From positions 1 through 51,455 of the forward strand of contig PEAK01000027.1 of NCBI GenBank assembly GCA_002753515.1: 51,455 bases of DNA. The letters run 5' to 3'. The translations under genes were made by a program, and so were the position numbers. This DNA comes from Magnetococcales bacterium. Its GTDB lineage: Bacteria > Pseudomonadota > Magnetococcia > Magnetococcales > UBA8363. Below the pieces are notes generated by a model. That model saw only the letters and a list, made by a program, of their open reading frames with translations. It was not told the origin of the DNA and made no database searches. Positions within the stretch are counted from its first letter, which is position 1, and every line of letters starts with the position of its first letter. This document shows, piece after piece, positions 39,616 through 51,455 of this stretch.

Positions 39616-39821
39616 TAAACCGCAACCAACGCGGGACACGTAGTTTTCTAGCGTCATTCCCGCGAAAGCGGGAATCCAGAAAGTCAGAGAAAGGTGTGTA
39701 AGTCCCCCCCGATTCAGGCATTCGGGGGCAGGCTCTGGGTCCCCGCTGAAGCCTGCCCTCGAATGCTTTAATCGGGGGCGTAGATGACAAGAACTACGAA
39801 TCCCAAGATAGCTGCGGTTTA
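39616..39821. repeat. Foldback (MITE-like) repeat element
   Basis: Ends are inverted repeats TAAACCGCA (39616-39624) and TGCGGTTTA (39813-39821). Inside, CGTAGTT (39639-39645) pairs with AACTACG (39792-39798) at an identical 14-nt distance, then GTCAT with ATGAC. The core holds ATTCCC-N8-GGGAAT (39656-39675) and a hairpin of about 28 bp with small mismatches (39706-39734 with 39750-39778). No coding capacity is seen. This structure fits a non-autonomous mobile repeat. Confidence 0.75.
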
Positions 39822-39972: not shown

Positions 39973-41244
39973 ATGTTGATAGAATTCAGTGTTGCCAACT
40001 ATCTCTCATTCTGTGAACGCCAGACCCTCAGCATGGTGGCTTCGGGATCCTACCGGGAGCTGCCCCATAATCTCATCACCTCGGGTATTTCCGGTCTTCC
40101 CAATCTGCTGGTTTCCAGCCTGATTTACGGCCCGAACGCCTCGGGCAAAAGCAACCTCATCAACGCCGCCATGTTCATGTGGGATTTCGTCCTCAATTCC
40201 GCCAAGGGGCAGGCAGGGGACCGCATTGATGTCCACCCCTTTCTCCTCAACAGCCGCAACGCCGAGGAACCCTGCCTGTTTGAAATGATCTTCGTCGTCG
40301 AGGAAACCCGCTATCAATACGGTTTCGGTGTCACATCGGAAAGGGTCAATCATGAGTGGCTCCTGGCCTACCCCAAGGGGCGTCCACAGCGTTGGTTTGA
40401 GCGCTACTACGATCCCGAATCGGGTCAGGAAACCTGGAATCTCCATAAAAAATTCCTGCCGGGCAATCGCGAAATATGGAAGGACGCGACCCGCGGCAAT
40501 GCCCTGTTCCTCTCCACCGCCATTCAACTTAACAGTGCCCCGTTACGGCCTGTATTCGATTGGTTTGACAAGCGGTTACGCATCTTCAGACCCCATAACG
40601 AGATCAGTCGCGAATTCACCGCCACCTTGTGCAAGGATCCTCAGGGACGCATGGAGGTCATGAAGTTTCTCAACCAGGCCGACCTGGATATCGAAGGAAT
40701 TCACCTGGAGACCCGATCTTTGGGCGACCTGGGCATGGACGACTTGCCCGATGGTGTACGAGCCGCCCTGAAAAGGGAAATGGCCACCCAAATGGTTACG
40801 GAAATTCGTCTGGAGCGTTCCACCGCGGACACCGGCAACCCGGTTCTCCTGCCCTGGGAGTCGGAATCAAAGGGAACGCAAAAGTTTTTTGCCTTGGCTT
40901 GGCCTCTGATCAACATGTTGCGTCAAGGACACGTGCTGTTTCTCGACGAGATGGACGCCAACCTGCACCATAATCTGGTGCGTTTCCTCTTTGGATTGCT
41001 GCATGACCCCCAGGTCAATCGCACCCAGGCGCAACTGGTTTCCACGACGCACGATACCGCCTTGCTGGACAACGATGTTTTTCGACGCGACCAATTCTGG
41101 ATGATTGAAAAAACCGGCGATCGTTGCAGTGAACTCTACCCCATTTCCGATTTCGATCCCGTCCGGGGAGATCCCTTGAACCGTCGGTACCTGGAAGGCC
41201 GTTTTGGCGCGTTACCCATACTGAAGCGGTTTGAAGGATGGTGA
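39973..41244 (+). CDS. RloA-like AAA (ABC-type) ATPase, candidate defence protein
   Basis: This 423-aa ATPase of the AAA_15/RloA group has an N-terminal strand MLIEFSVANYLSFCERQTLS, Walker A GPNASGKS at about residues 53-60, an ABC-like signature region ESKGTQKF, Walker B VLFLDEMDANL and the switch TTHD (STTHDTALLDN). Such ATPases act as sensors in OLD-, PARIS- and RloAB-type systems. ATG 39973 gives the family N-terminus and has GGGAG upstream; the frame is open to 39844. It overlaps the next gene by 7 nt, indicating a two-gene unit. Its start lies 150 nt from the foldback element. Confidence 0.85.
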   Translation: MLIEFSVANYLSFCERQTLSMVASGSYRELPHNLITSGISGLPNLLVSSLIYGPNASGKSNLINAAMFMWDFVLNSAKGQAGDRIDVHPFLLNSRNAEEPCLFEMIFVVEETRYQYGFGVTSERVNHEWLLAYPKGRPQRWFERYYDPESGQETWNLHKKFLPGNREIWKDATRGNALFLSTAIQLNSAPLRPVFDWFDKRLRIFRPHNEISREFTATLCKDPQGRMEVMKFLNQADLDIEGIHLETRSLGDLGMDDLPDGVRAALKREMATQMVTEIRLERSTADTGNPVLLPWESESKGTQKFFALAWPLINMLRQGHVLFLDEMDANLHHNLVRFLFGLLHDPQVNRTQAQLVSTTHDTALLDNDVFRRDQFWMIEKTGDRCSELYPISDFDPVRGDPLNRRYLEGRFGALPILKRFEGW

Positions 41245-41927
41245 ACCCTCATTCCCACAGGAGACCCGATGCCCCCCGGCAGCGCCTGCTGGAGACCCTA
41301 GACCGGCATCGAAGTCCGCACGCACCGGTCGAGCGTATGCTCATCACCGCCCCAAGTGGTGCCCTGACTTATCTGCAAGCCCTCCTACAGCATTTTTCTT
41401 TGGCGGACACCACCACCGTGATCGCAGATCATTCCCGCCTTCCCGGGGAATTCATGGCCAGGATCCAGGAATTGCACCAACAAACGGGTCCCTTCCGTAA
41501 ACTGTTCGCCATCCTGGATTTACCAGAAGGAAAAACCGCCTTCGAGAACCATTACAAAGGGATTGGCGCGCTGGTCCGCCACCATGACCTTTCCGGCACC
41601 GTGTTGTTCCGCTCCCTGTTTTCCCGCCCCGATTTTTCCCTGTGGCTCTCTCTGCACATGACACTCCCCGGCATTCCCGGCGACCCTTCCCGGTATCAGC
41701 AATGGCTGCAGCAAGCCCTGCAAGCTGGACACTCCCTGTTCCCGAGCCACGAAGACCCCACCCCATGGCACAACGCCCCGCATCTCCTCGAAACCGCCGT
41801 CAAGCAAGCCCGACAACTGGCCCGTGAACGAGCCCTGCGCCCCGATGATCACCATCTCCCCTTTACCGAAGTCCATGAATTGTTGACCTATCTGTCGCGC
41901 ATGGCGCAGCGCCGTCACCTTCGTTAA
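41238..41927 (+). CDS. RloB-like protein with degenerate TOPRIM-type site
   Basis: This is a 229-aa protein aligning by eye with RloB: basic N-terminus (RRPDAPRQRLLETLDRHRS), then RMLITAPSGALTYLQAL where RloB has an I-V-C-E-G-E block, FAILDLPEGKTAFENHY where RloB has F-D-x-D-E, and SRPDFSLWLSLHM where RloB has SNPCFELWLLLHF. The topology is kept, but the catalytic Glu is gone and only one Asp of the DxD pair remains. It is coupled to the ATPase gene by a 7-nt overlap and is probably the effector of the pair, perhaps without nuclease activity. The family call is from pattern similarity. Confidence 0.62.
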   Translation: MVNPHSHRRPDAPRQRLLETLDRHRSPHAPVERMLITAPSGALTYLQALLQHFSLADTTTVIADHSRLPGEFMARIQELHQQTGPFRKLFAILDLPEGKTAFENHYKGIGALVRHHDLSGTVLFRSLFSRPDFSLWLSLHMTLPGIPGDPSRYQQWLQQALQAGHSLFPSHEDPTPWHNAPHLLETAVKQARQLARERALRPDDHHLPFTEVHELLTYLSRMAQRRHLR

Positions 41928-49947: not shown

Positions 49948-51455
49948 AGTTCCCCCAAATAAATCATACAACCTATTGAAATTTAAAGATACTATATCTT
50001 GGGAGCATGTGTTTTCTGCCTACATTATGGCTCCAGGATTGATGCCGAGGAGACGAAAAGCCTTTGATTGAAGAGAAGTCTCTTTGGTGATTACAGGAAA
50101 AGTCAAGGTAGTGTCGGCTCCCATGCGTACAGTGTTGTAGCACACCGTTGCCAAATTTGTGAGGAGCGAACGAAAGCTCTGGACCGGAAAACCTGCATCC
50201 GTCTGCTTCCTGGCGGCCTTGTCCAAAGCCTCCTTTGATCGCGTGGACGGGGCCACTGGATCGGGTCGGGATGCCTTGGCTGCAGTCTTGTCATTGTCAT
50301 CAAAAAGCAGAGGAGCCAAGGCTGGGCGCATATGCCATTCCACGTAATAGGCCAGCATGCACAAAAACACATGGGCTTTCACACGTTTGGTCAGGTGATG
50401 GAAAATCGGTCGCACTTTGAGATCAACAGTCTTGATGCTGCGAAATGCGCGCTCAACCCCGGATAAACTCTTGTATATATTGACCACGGCATTGGTCGCA
50501 ATCGCCTCGGTTTCGACGCTGGTGCGGATCACGTAGAACCCGTCGAGCAATCCTTCCTTGGTAATAGCATCTTCCTTTCGCTGCCAGGATAAATTATCGT
50601 CCGTGATGGTGACTTCGAAGTGCTTGGCCATCTTGTATTTGCCAATCACAGCCCCAACCTTCAAGGCGATTTTGTCACGCCCATTGAGCCTTGCTCGCGT
50701 CCGCTGCGTCGCTACTTGGATTTTCTCCAGCTTTTGTTCAGTCACGGCAAGAAGTTCCAGACGTTTTTTCTTTCGTAGAACGGCCAAGTCAGGGTTGCGA
50801 CACACCACCAGTCTTTCTCCCGGATAATCCGGTGAGGTTATTTCGGCCAACCGGCGTTCATCGAACAGCGACGGTTGAAACCTGTCATTGGCAACAAGCG
50901 ATTGGATTTCCGTGGATTTCAGAGCCGTGATCCAGTCAAGCCCTGCTGGTTTCAGATCCTGGGTAATTCGGGCACTGGTGATCATTCCCCGGTCCCCAAC
51001 CAGAATAATTCGGTTCAGATTGAAACGGTTGGCGAGCTTTTCAATCTGGGTGGCAAGGGTCGTTGGATCGGCGGTGTTGCCTTCAAAGACCTCAACAGCG
51101 ACCGGGCAACCTTCAGAATTGCACAACAGGCCAAAGACGATCTGCAATTTGTCCTTTTTTCCATCCCGACTGTAGCCCCGCTTTGCAATCGGGCATTTTT
51201 TCCCTTCAAAATAAGTCGAGGTCAAATCGTATAGTACCAAGTCGCCGTCCTTCAAATGACGCCTTGAAAGGGCTTTTTCAATGCCGGGTTGGCCTTCCAA
51301 CAGGCTGTCCAACGCTGCGTAAAGCTCATCCTCATCTACTTCTACTTTGTCACATTTAACCTTTTGATTTGTTACGGATATGTTACAATATTTGCATCCT
51401 TAAACGCAAGGTCAGGAACTCGAAAAGAATGAGCGGAGCAGACCCACCAACAAAC
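49925..51455. mobile_element. IS1634-family insertion sequence (right end outside window)
   Basis: The element carries a DDE transposase on the minus strand and interrupts the gene at 49855. Its left boundary lies between about 49925 and 49980, where GC-rich host sequence changes to AT-rich sequence. The other boundary lies beyond the window or close to its end, so terminal inverted repeats and target duplication could not be defined. Confidence 0.78.
50020..51312 (-). CDS. IS1634-family transposase, N-terminus lacking or frameshifted
   Basis: This 430-aa DDE transposase of the IS1634 family shows LVLYDLTSTYFEG, YSRDGKKDKLQIVFGLLCN, EVFEGNTADP, ILVGDRGMITSARI and the C-terminal AFRSIKTVDLKVRPIFHH with the acidic catalytic residues. 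Family members are usually about 550-600 aa. The frame can be extended upstream only to a stop near 51400 and the missing N-terminal about 130 residues are not in this frame. Either a frameshift lies near 51380 or this copy is truncated. TTG 51312 is a nominal start. Confidence 0.85.
   Translation of the reverse strand: MDSLLEGQPGIEKALSRRHLKDGDLVLYDLTSTYFEGKKCPIAKRGYSRDGKKDKLQIVFGLLCNSEGCPVAVEVFEGNTADPTTLATQIEKLANRFNLNRIILVGDRGMITSARITQDLKPAGLDWITALKSTEIQSLVANDRFQPSLFDERRLAEITSPDYPGERLVVCRNPDLAVLRKKKRLELLAVTEQKLEKIQVATQRTRARLNGRDKIALKVGAVIGKYKMAKHFEVTITDDNLSWQRKEDAITKEGLLDGFYVIRTSVETEAIATNAVVNIYKSLSGVERAFRSIKTVDLKVRPIFHHLTKRVKAHVFLCMLAYYVEWHMRPALAPLLFDDNDKTAAKASRPDPVAPSTRSKEALDKAARKQTDAGFPVQSFRSLLTNLATVCYNTVRMGADTTLTFPVITKETSLQSKAFRLLGINPGAIM

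Follow-up and report, generated by a model that had tools for sequence, protein, structure and literature searches.

A probable IS630-type MITE with CGTC-type REP palindromes in a Magnetococcales draft genome

Genomic locus and structure of the M1 element

The window, i.e. the whole stretch of 51,455 nucleotides analysed here, corresponds to contig C72 of a 4.33-Mb draft genome of a Magnetococcales bacterium that is 97% complete. It contains a 206-bp foldback element, named M1, located, as described in the earlier note, between the nusA operon and a candidate defence gene pair (Table 1). To the left of M1, RimP-, NusA- and IF2-like ORFs were recognised by eye on the minus strand, and to its right lie genes for an AbiLi/AriA-like AAA_21 ATPase and for a weak RloB/AbiLii-like protein, which represent a candidate AbiL-type defence pair (39973-41927). 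The ATPase gene probably starts at 39973, as similarity to relatives begins there, so that M1 would end about 150 bp upstream of it. Two terminator-like sites were detected, both to the left of M1, and no promoter-like or terminator-like site was found within the element. The contig itself opens (positions 1-200) with short, GC-rich units of the type GGTTCCGGCGTC repeated in tandem.

All the symmetries previously described were found in M1. They include the terminal repeat TAAACCGCA (39616-39624) and TGCGGTTTA (39813-39821), the inner repeat CGTAGTT (39639-39645) and AACTACG (39792-39798), both halves of which lie 14 nt inward of the terminal repeat, and a long central hairpin, the 29-nt arms of which (39706-39734 and 39750-39778) are 90% complementary. 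The motif ATTCCC-N8-GGGAAT has a single exact occurrence in the window (39656-39675), where 0.30 would be expected even allowing one mismatch. In folding terms these symmetries are far above chance, with z scores of the folding energy of -8.5 (RNA) and -7.6 (DNA) and none of 200 shuffled sequences being equally stable. None of the listed ORFs of at least 80 amino acids lies inside M1, in agreement with the statement that it encodes nothing. No Rfam family matched the window at the gathering score, and a plasmid collection gave zero matches.

Table 1. Coordinates of M1 and of its parts in the window
Feature	Position	Strand	Remarks
Whole copy of MITE M1	39616..39821	+	Both TA dinucleotides included; matches in the own genome begin and end here; empty sites retain one TA
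M1 proper	39618-39819		Without the flanking TAs
Left TA	39616..39617	+	One of the two copies of the target; both flanks TA in 67/76 parsed copies
Right TA	39820..39821	+	Other copy of the duplicated target; same TA-flank count as left TA
Left end common to M1 and IS630 parent	39616..39648	+	Identical bases 31/33 (G006) and 28/33 (G023); best IS-interior match 18
Right end common to M1 and IS630 parent	39791..39821	+	27/31 bases identical to G006 and to G023
REP 1 (P1)	39653..39679	+	CGTC-1 type palindrome with ATTCCC-N8-GGGAAT; family described in the text available of PMC3733652
Hairpin Q, first copy	39707..39734	-	Just before REP 2; missing there in basic copies (e.g. L026, L029)
REP 2 (P2), first half	39735..39746	-	Unbroken in basic copies
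Hairpin Q, second copy (Q')	39750..39777	+	In REP 2 loop; pairs with first Q copy to form the long central stem; one orthologous insertion occurs with and without Q
REP 2 (P2), second half	39778..39788	-	Stem bases changed

Dispersed copies, empty sites and IS630-type ends

The earlier note had proposed to search the same genome for dispersed copies, and 95 BLAST matches to M1 were found there, with 40 of the 258 first-look candidates scored; as each match represents a BLAST piece, the number should not be read as a copy count. When one mismatch was allowed, the terminal pattern AAACCGCANCNANC matched 249 and 251 times, compared to 112 and 103 times for the reversed pattern. From the fetched loci, 79 end-to-end copies were parsed, four of which are likely false pairings (C107:59857, C11:36871, C16:15595 and C8:59990). 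The most common size is 150-151 bp (38 of the 79 copies), followed by 177-180 bp (19 copies), whereas the window copy is one of three that make up a 206-bp class. Among the 76 copies with both flanks, 67 have a TA on both sides, and the nine exceptions are these four likely false pairings and five copies in which one or both TAs are changed. The TA is preceded by T or C in 67 of 77 cases and followed by A or G in 75 of 78, and the target is therefore YTAR, with duplication of the TA.

Other features were noted at some M1-type loci. Tandem M1 copies share a TTTAAA junction at L134, L155 and L062 (own genome and G037), and members of a second MITE family, M2, are inserted within M1 copies at L136, L254 and L255 or flank one at L158. 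A group II intron (Rfam RF00029) breaks M1 copies beside the REP 1 palindrome at L287 (C21) and at L289 (C41), and to the left of an M1-type end at L054 (G006:C24), repeated SQSPFMRGDDFR-coding units were recognised by eye as a CRISPR-like array.

Empty sites, which the earlier note had also suggested looking for, were present in related genomes. At the window locus, alignment scores to relatives were compared after removing the element and leaving one TA. The scores without and with M1 were 51 and 8 in G004, 41 and 4 in G005, and 29 and 5 in G006; in G007, which has another sequence inserted, they were 23 and 20. The corresponding intergenic region of G004 and G005 is without M1, and M1 is thus not the single-copy sequence conserved with its flanking genes that, according to the same note, would have pointed to a structured RNA. 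A joint query of 22 M1 sites, including that of the window, was run against the closest relative, G001 (75% complete), in which 10 of the 22 sites are unoccupied and matched across the junction. Site 13 is occupied, sites 8 and 9 are matched by halves on different contigs, and no match across the junction was found for the remaining sites in this 75% complete genome. A base-by-base comparison showed a single TA at six of the ten empty sites (C87, C104, C99, C9, C74 and C8, the gap at C8 having been shifted by one base by the aligner), while the other four have CA (C121), TC (C123) or small junction indels (C82 and C93).

IS630-family insertion sequences duplicate a TA and have short terminal inverted repeats. 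A longer repeat starting with an M1-type end is cut off after about 76 bp by the ends of several G006 contigs, as expected of a multi-copy IS. On G006:C57, an ORF for the C-terminal part of an IS630 transposase extends into an M1-type end and terminates within it (ORF ending KLRIPK); in the IS630 parent, the right end encodes the last transposase codons and the stop codon. The G006 fragment is matched in 18 of 48 genomes of the order that were searched, and a search with it did not find the parent in the own genome (97% complete draft). A complete element is present on G023:C71, where M1-type ends delimit a stretch of 1,234 bp, TAs included. Its ORF 1 encodes a helix-turn-helix domain (95 residues from the ATG as typed) and overlaps, in another frame, ORF 2, which has 307 codons and HTH_33 and DDE_3 domains. 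The two ends of M1 match those of the G023 element at 28/33 and 27/31 bases and those of the G006 element at 31/33 and 27/31 bases, compared to a best match of 18 in the IS interior. Transposases with matching ends, the third check proposed, were thus found in IS630 elements, the parent coding for a DDE_3 transposase and M1 being without coding sequence.

Other candidate parents were rejected. An IS1-like fragment adjoins an M1-type end in G005, but another copy of this IS1 ends at GGAACACCACCCA, so that it had landed inside an M1-type element. Similarly, the IS630 fragment next to an M1 end on G037:C296 (L100) is an insertion, as L098 shows this IS ending in ...GTGCACCACTA before unrelated sequence, and the IS630 fragments of the own contigs C84 and C108 (L099 and L096) have ends that differ from those of M1.

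The element in the window, which is short, non-coding and bounded by the terminal inverted repeat TAAACCGCA, which has dispersed copies with target duplication and which shares 27 to 31 of the 31 to 33 end bases with autonomous IS630 elements, can be assigned securely to the MITEs on these sequence grounds. Its status, target and parent family are settled as far as sequence allows, and the dispersed copies, empty sites and matching ends support the earlier reading of a MITE moved by a transposase encoded elsewhere. Mobilisation would occur in trans by an IS630 transposase; since no parent transposase was found in the 97% complete draft, present-day mobilisation in this genome is presumptive.

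REP palindromes and hairpin Q within MITEs

The earlier note had likened the ATTCCC-N8-GGGAAT motif to the dRS3 repeat of Neisseria, and the pattern printed for dRS3, ATTCCC(N8)GGGAAT (PMC3898611), agrees in form, although the name belongs to Neisseria. According to the text available of Di Nocera et al. (2013, PMC3733652), dRS3 are CGTC-1 REPs. Positions 39652-39679 of the window read CGTCATTCCCGCGAAAGCGGGAATCCAG, with a CGTC head, an 8-bp stem, a 4-nt loop and a CCA tail, so that P1 has the characteristics of a CGTC-1 REP. P2 of the window copy departs from this type, having Q' in its loop and changed stem bases, whereas P2 of basic copies has the 4-nt loop and an intact stem. Basic M1 copies contain the two REPs in inverted orientation with their heads outward, and a basic M1 is made of IS630 ends around two inverted CGTC REPs. 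The three layers of symmetry described previously are real; what had gone unnoticed is that the core palindrome is a separate repeat common to unrelated MITEs. Likewise, the long central hairpin is present but had not been recognised as a later arrival that interrupts another palindrome of this kind.

Compared to basic M1, the window copy has two additional copies of a 28-nt hairpin, Q (AGCCTGCCC-Y-CGAATGC-Y-T-N-AATCGGGG), one of them in the REP 2 loop, and the long central stem results from the pairing of Q with Q'. According to script labels, Q is in the REP 2 loop in 10 of the 79 copies (177-178 bp), in the REP 1 loop in 2, before REP 2 in 6 (178-180 bp) and in both of the positions found in the window copy in the 3 copies of the 206-bp class. 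A REP is in turn found inside Q at L003, L006, L022 and L024. One MITE insertion contains Q in the own genome (C30:3646) and lacks it in G001 (C41), indicating that Q is not fixed. In G016, of the same order, one of two neighbouring and nearly identical repeats has Q in the REP loop and the other lacks it, and contig C28 of this genome has a REP-plus-Q compound at 2813-2866. One exact-pattern scan of the GTDB collection for the compound returned 40 stretches: 14 from Magnetococcales, 19 from Burkholderiales or Betaproteobacteria, 3 from Lysobacter or Lysobacteraceae, 1 from Thiobacillus, 1 from Omnitrophota, and 2 titled Bordetella parapertussis, which are metagenome bins of doubtful label. 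Among 41 compound matches, the script classified Q as tail-first in 23, head-first in 3 and undecided in 15, whereas inspection by eye gave 39 and 2, so that Q has a preferred direction within the REP. As to the origin of REP 2, the IS of G006 reads CCCTGGATCCC and that of G023 CCCTTGATCCC where M1 copy L026 reads CCCCTGGATCCCC; derivation of REP 2 from the IS itself is a lead only.

The own genome contains 464 REPs (up to two mismatches), compared to none for the reversed control. The first 100 of these in contig order, which are not a random sample, were assigned to MITE families, the ends of M2 and M3 having been recognised in the same loci that were then used for counting. In 86 cases the REP lies between both ends of one family (M1 55, M2 22, M3 9), 13 lie beside one MITE end, and 1, at a contig end, is unassigned. 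Random positions in the window fell between both ends in 0 of 1,968 cases and beside one end in 88 of 1,968, so that some of the 13 one-end REPs could be due to chance. The ends are TTCTACTTTGTCACA in M2 and GGCCTTGATCATCGTTTCG in M3, the REP heads point inward in both, and 4-bp duplications (TTAA, CTAA, CTAT, ATAA and TTAT) were seen by eye for M2. The REP is the sole part common to M1, M2 and M3, as judged by eye. Position 51340 to the end of the window (51455), together with L288 on own contig C22, shows both contigs ending in one longer repeat that starts with an M2-type end (TTCTACTTTGTCACA); it is probably the left end of the autonomous M2 parent.

In G019, which belongs to another family, 60 of the 100 REPs listed are arranged in pairs with their heads outward and a spacing of 122-130 bp. 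Five copies were read, four of which are bounded at either side by inverted ends of the TATA type and the fifth on the left only, and these pairs are probably a fourth REP-carrying MITE. G051 has a bare REP pair with no visible MITE ends, and carriage by MITEs therefore need not hold everywhere. REPs as cargo shared between MITEs are solidly established for the sampled REPs of this genome, and the data are suggestive for the order.

Origin and spread of the REP-carrying elements

We conclude that M1 is very probably a non-autonomous IS630-type MITE and that the REPs, which have no transposase of their own here, are passengers of M1 and of at least two unrelated MITE families. A full-length IS of about 1.23 kb, the DDE_3 transposase of which seems to be encoded in two frames that overlap, would bind the ends it shares with M1, excise M1 and paste it into a YTAR target, thereby duplicating the TA. 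The interior has kept no transposase gene and contains two CGTC-1 REPs that are inverted relative to each other. Q may have entered the REP loop or an adjoining spot in some copies, giving rise to the nested symmetry. The REPs would thereby spread with each of their carriers.

That M1 is instead a structured RNA or a cis-regulatory element of the nusA-operon/defence-gene region might be thought from its very stable fold and its position in a divergent promoter region, but this is most improbable given the dispersed copies, the relatives without M1 at the same place, and the lack of Rfam matches in the window and of promoter-like or terminator-like sites in M1. REPINs have two inverted REPs, as does M1, and a RAYT (Y1 transposase) could thus be imagined to act on the palindromes of a REPIN-like element. 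This is hardly tenable either: the only Y1_Tnp match in the own genome is a broken, IS200-like one, which led to the rejection of a RAYT as mover, the head is CGTC and not of the GTAG type that goes with a RAYT gene, and both the boundaries and the TA duplication of M1 lie outside the REPs.

Alternatively, the REPs could be the mobile units, inserting preferentially into MITE interiors, with the MITEs as targets and not vehicles. One REP occurs in three MITE families whose ends and spacers are unrelated, in both relative orientations, and must therefore have entered at least three times; moreover, flanking palindromes are treated as REP targets in the text available of Di Nocera et al. (2013, PMC3733652). 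However, among the first 100 listed REPs, 99 could be placed within a MITE or next to one, which copying with the MITE explains better than repeated targeting, REP positions are constant within each MITE family, and a REP transposase was not found in the own genome, making this alternative unlikely. Somewhat less doubtful, and possible, is that REPs pass from one MITE family to another when recombination or template switching takes place at their palindromes, as suggested by L277, in which the left end is that of M1, the right end that of M3 and the two are joined through REPs, and by L267, which mixes M1 and M2 pieces. Only one or two such chimeras were seen, and plain nested insertion of M2 in M1 is more common. 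Such a transfer is compatible with the passenger explanation, as the step by which a REP enters a MITE.

The 26-bp inverted repeats of the Correia elements of Neisseria differ in sequence from the M1 ends. In other respects these elements resemble M1, being MITEs of 100-155 bp with inverted repeats and TA duplication in a dRS3-rich genome, and the available part of that description contains no statement that dRS3 lie inside them (PMC3898611). A REP within a MITE has a precedent in QMITE2 of Coxiella burnetii, in which, according to the portion available, the REP is also a target for further insertion (IS1111); unlike M1, QMITE2 has a GTAG-type REP and 7-11 nt direct repeats and is one family, compared to the CGTC type, TA duplication and several families here (PMC5896051). 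The CGTC-1 REPs, as far as described in the accessible text of the 2013 survey, share with those of M1 the head GTC, the 8-bp stem ATTCCCGC, the 4-nt loop GAAA, the CCA tail, the inverted pairs and the lack of a dedicated transposase, whereas here they lie inside MITEs of at least three families and can have a 28-nt hairpin in a loop given there as 4-5 nt, other CGTC loop lengths being mentioned for Bradyrhizobium and two other species (PMC3733652). All CGTC-1 dimers of H. neapolitanus are within 41-bp palindromes in the same text, and we suspect that these are MITE ends too. No statement that CGTC REPs are carried by MITEs was recognised in the open-licence literature searched.

It is quite possible, if still tentative, that CGTC REPs generally are passenger modules shared by unrelated transposons, swapped between MITEs at their palindromes, and a loop-specific landing place for Q, a smaller hairpin that is mobile-like. 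IS end, REP and Q would then be nested at three levels, an arrangement recurring across distant bacteria. For CGTC REPs, which lack a transposase, the available text of the 2013 survey left the route of spread open, the REPs either dying out or being moved by a broad spectrum of transposases (PMC3733652). REP carriage in this genome favours the latter alternative and makes it testable, as REP copy number should track MITE activity. A second hairpin can be gained by or lost from a REP loop while the insertion stays the same, and this genome shows how a palindrome may persist by riding several unrelated transposons. REP carriage by MITEs may thus explain the spread of transposase-less hairpins.
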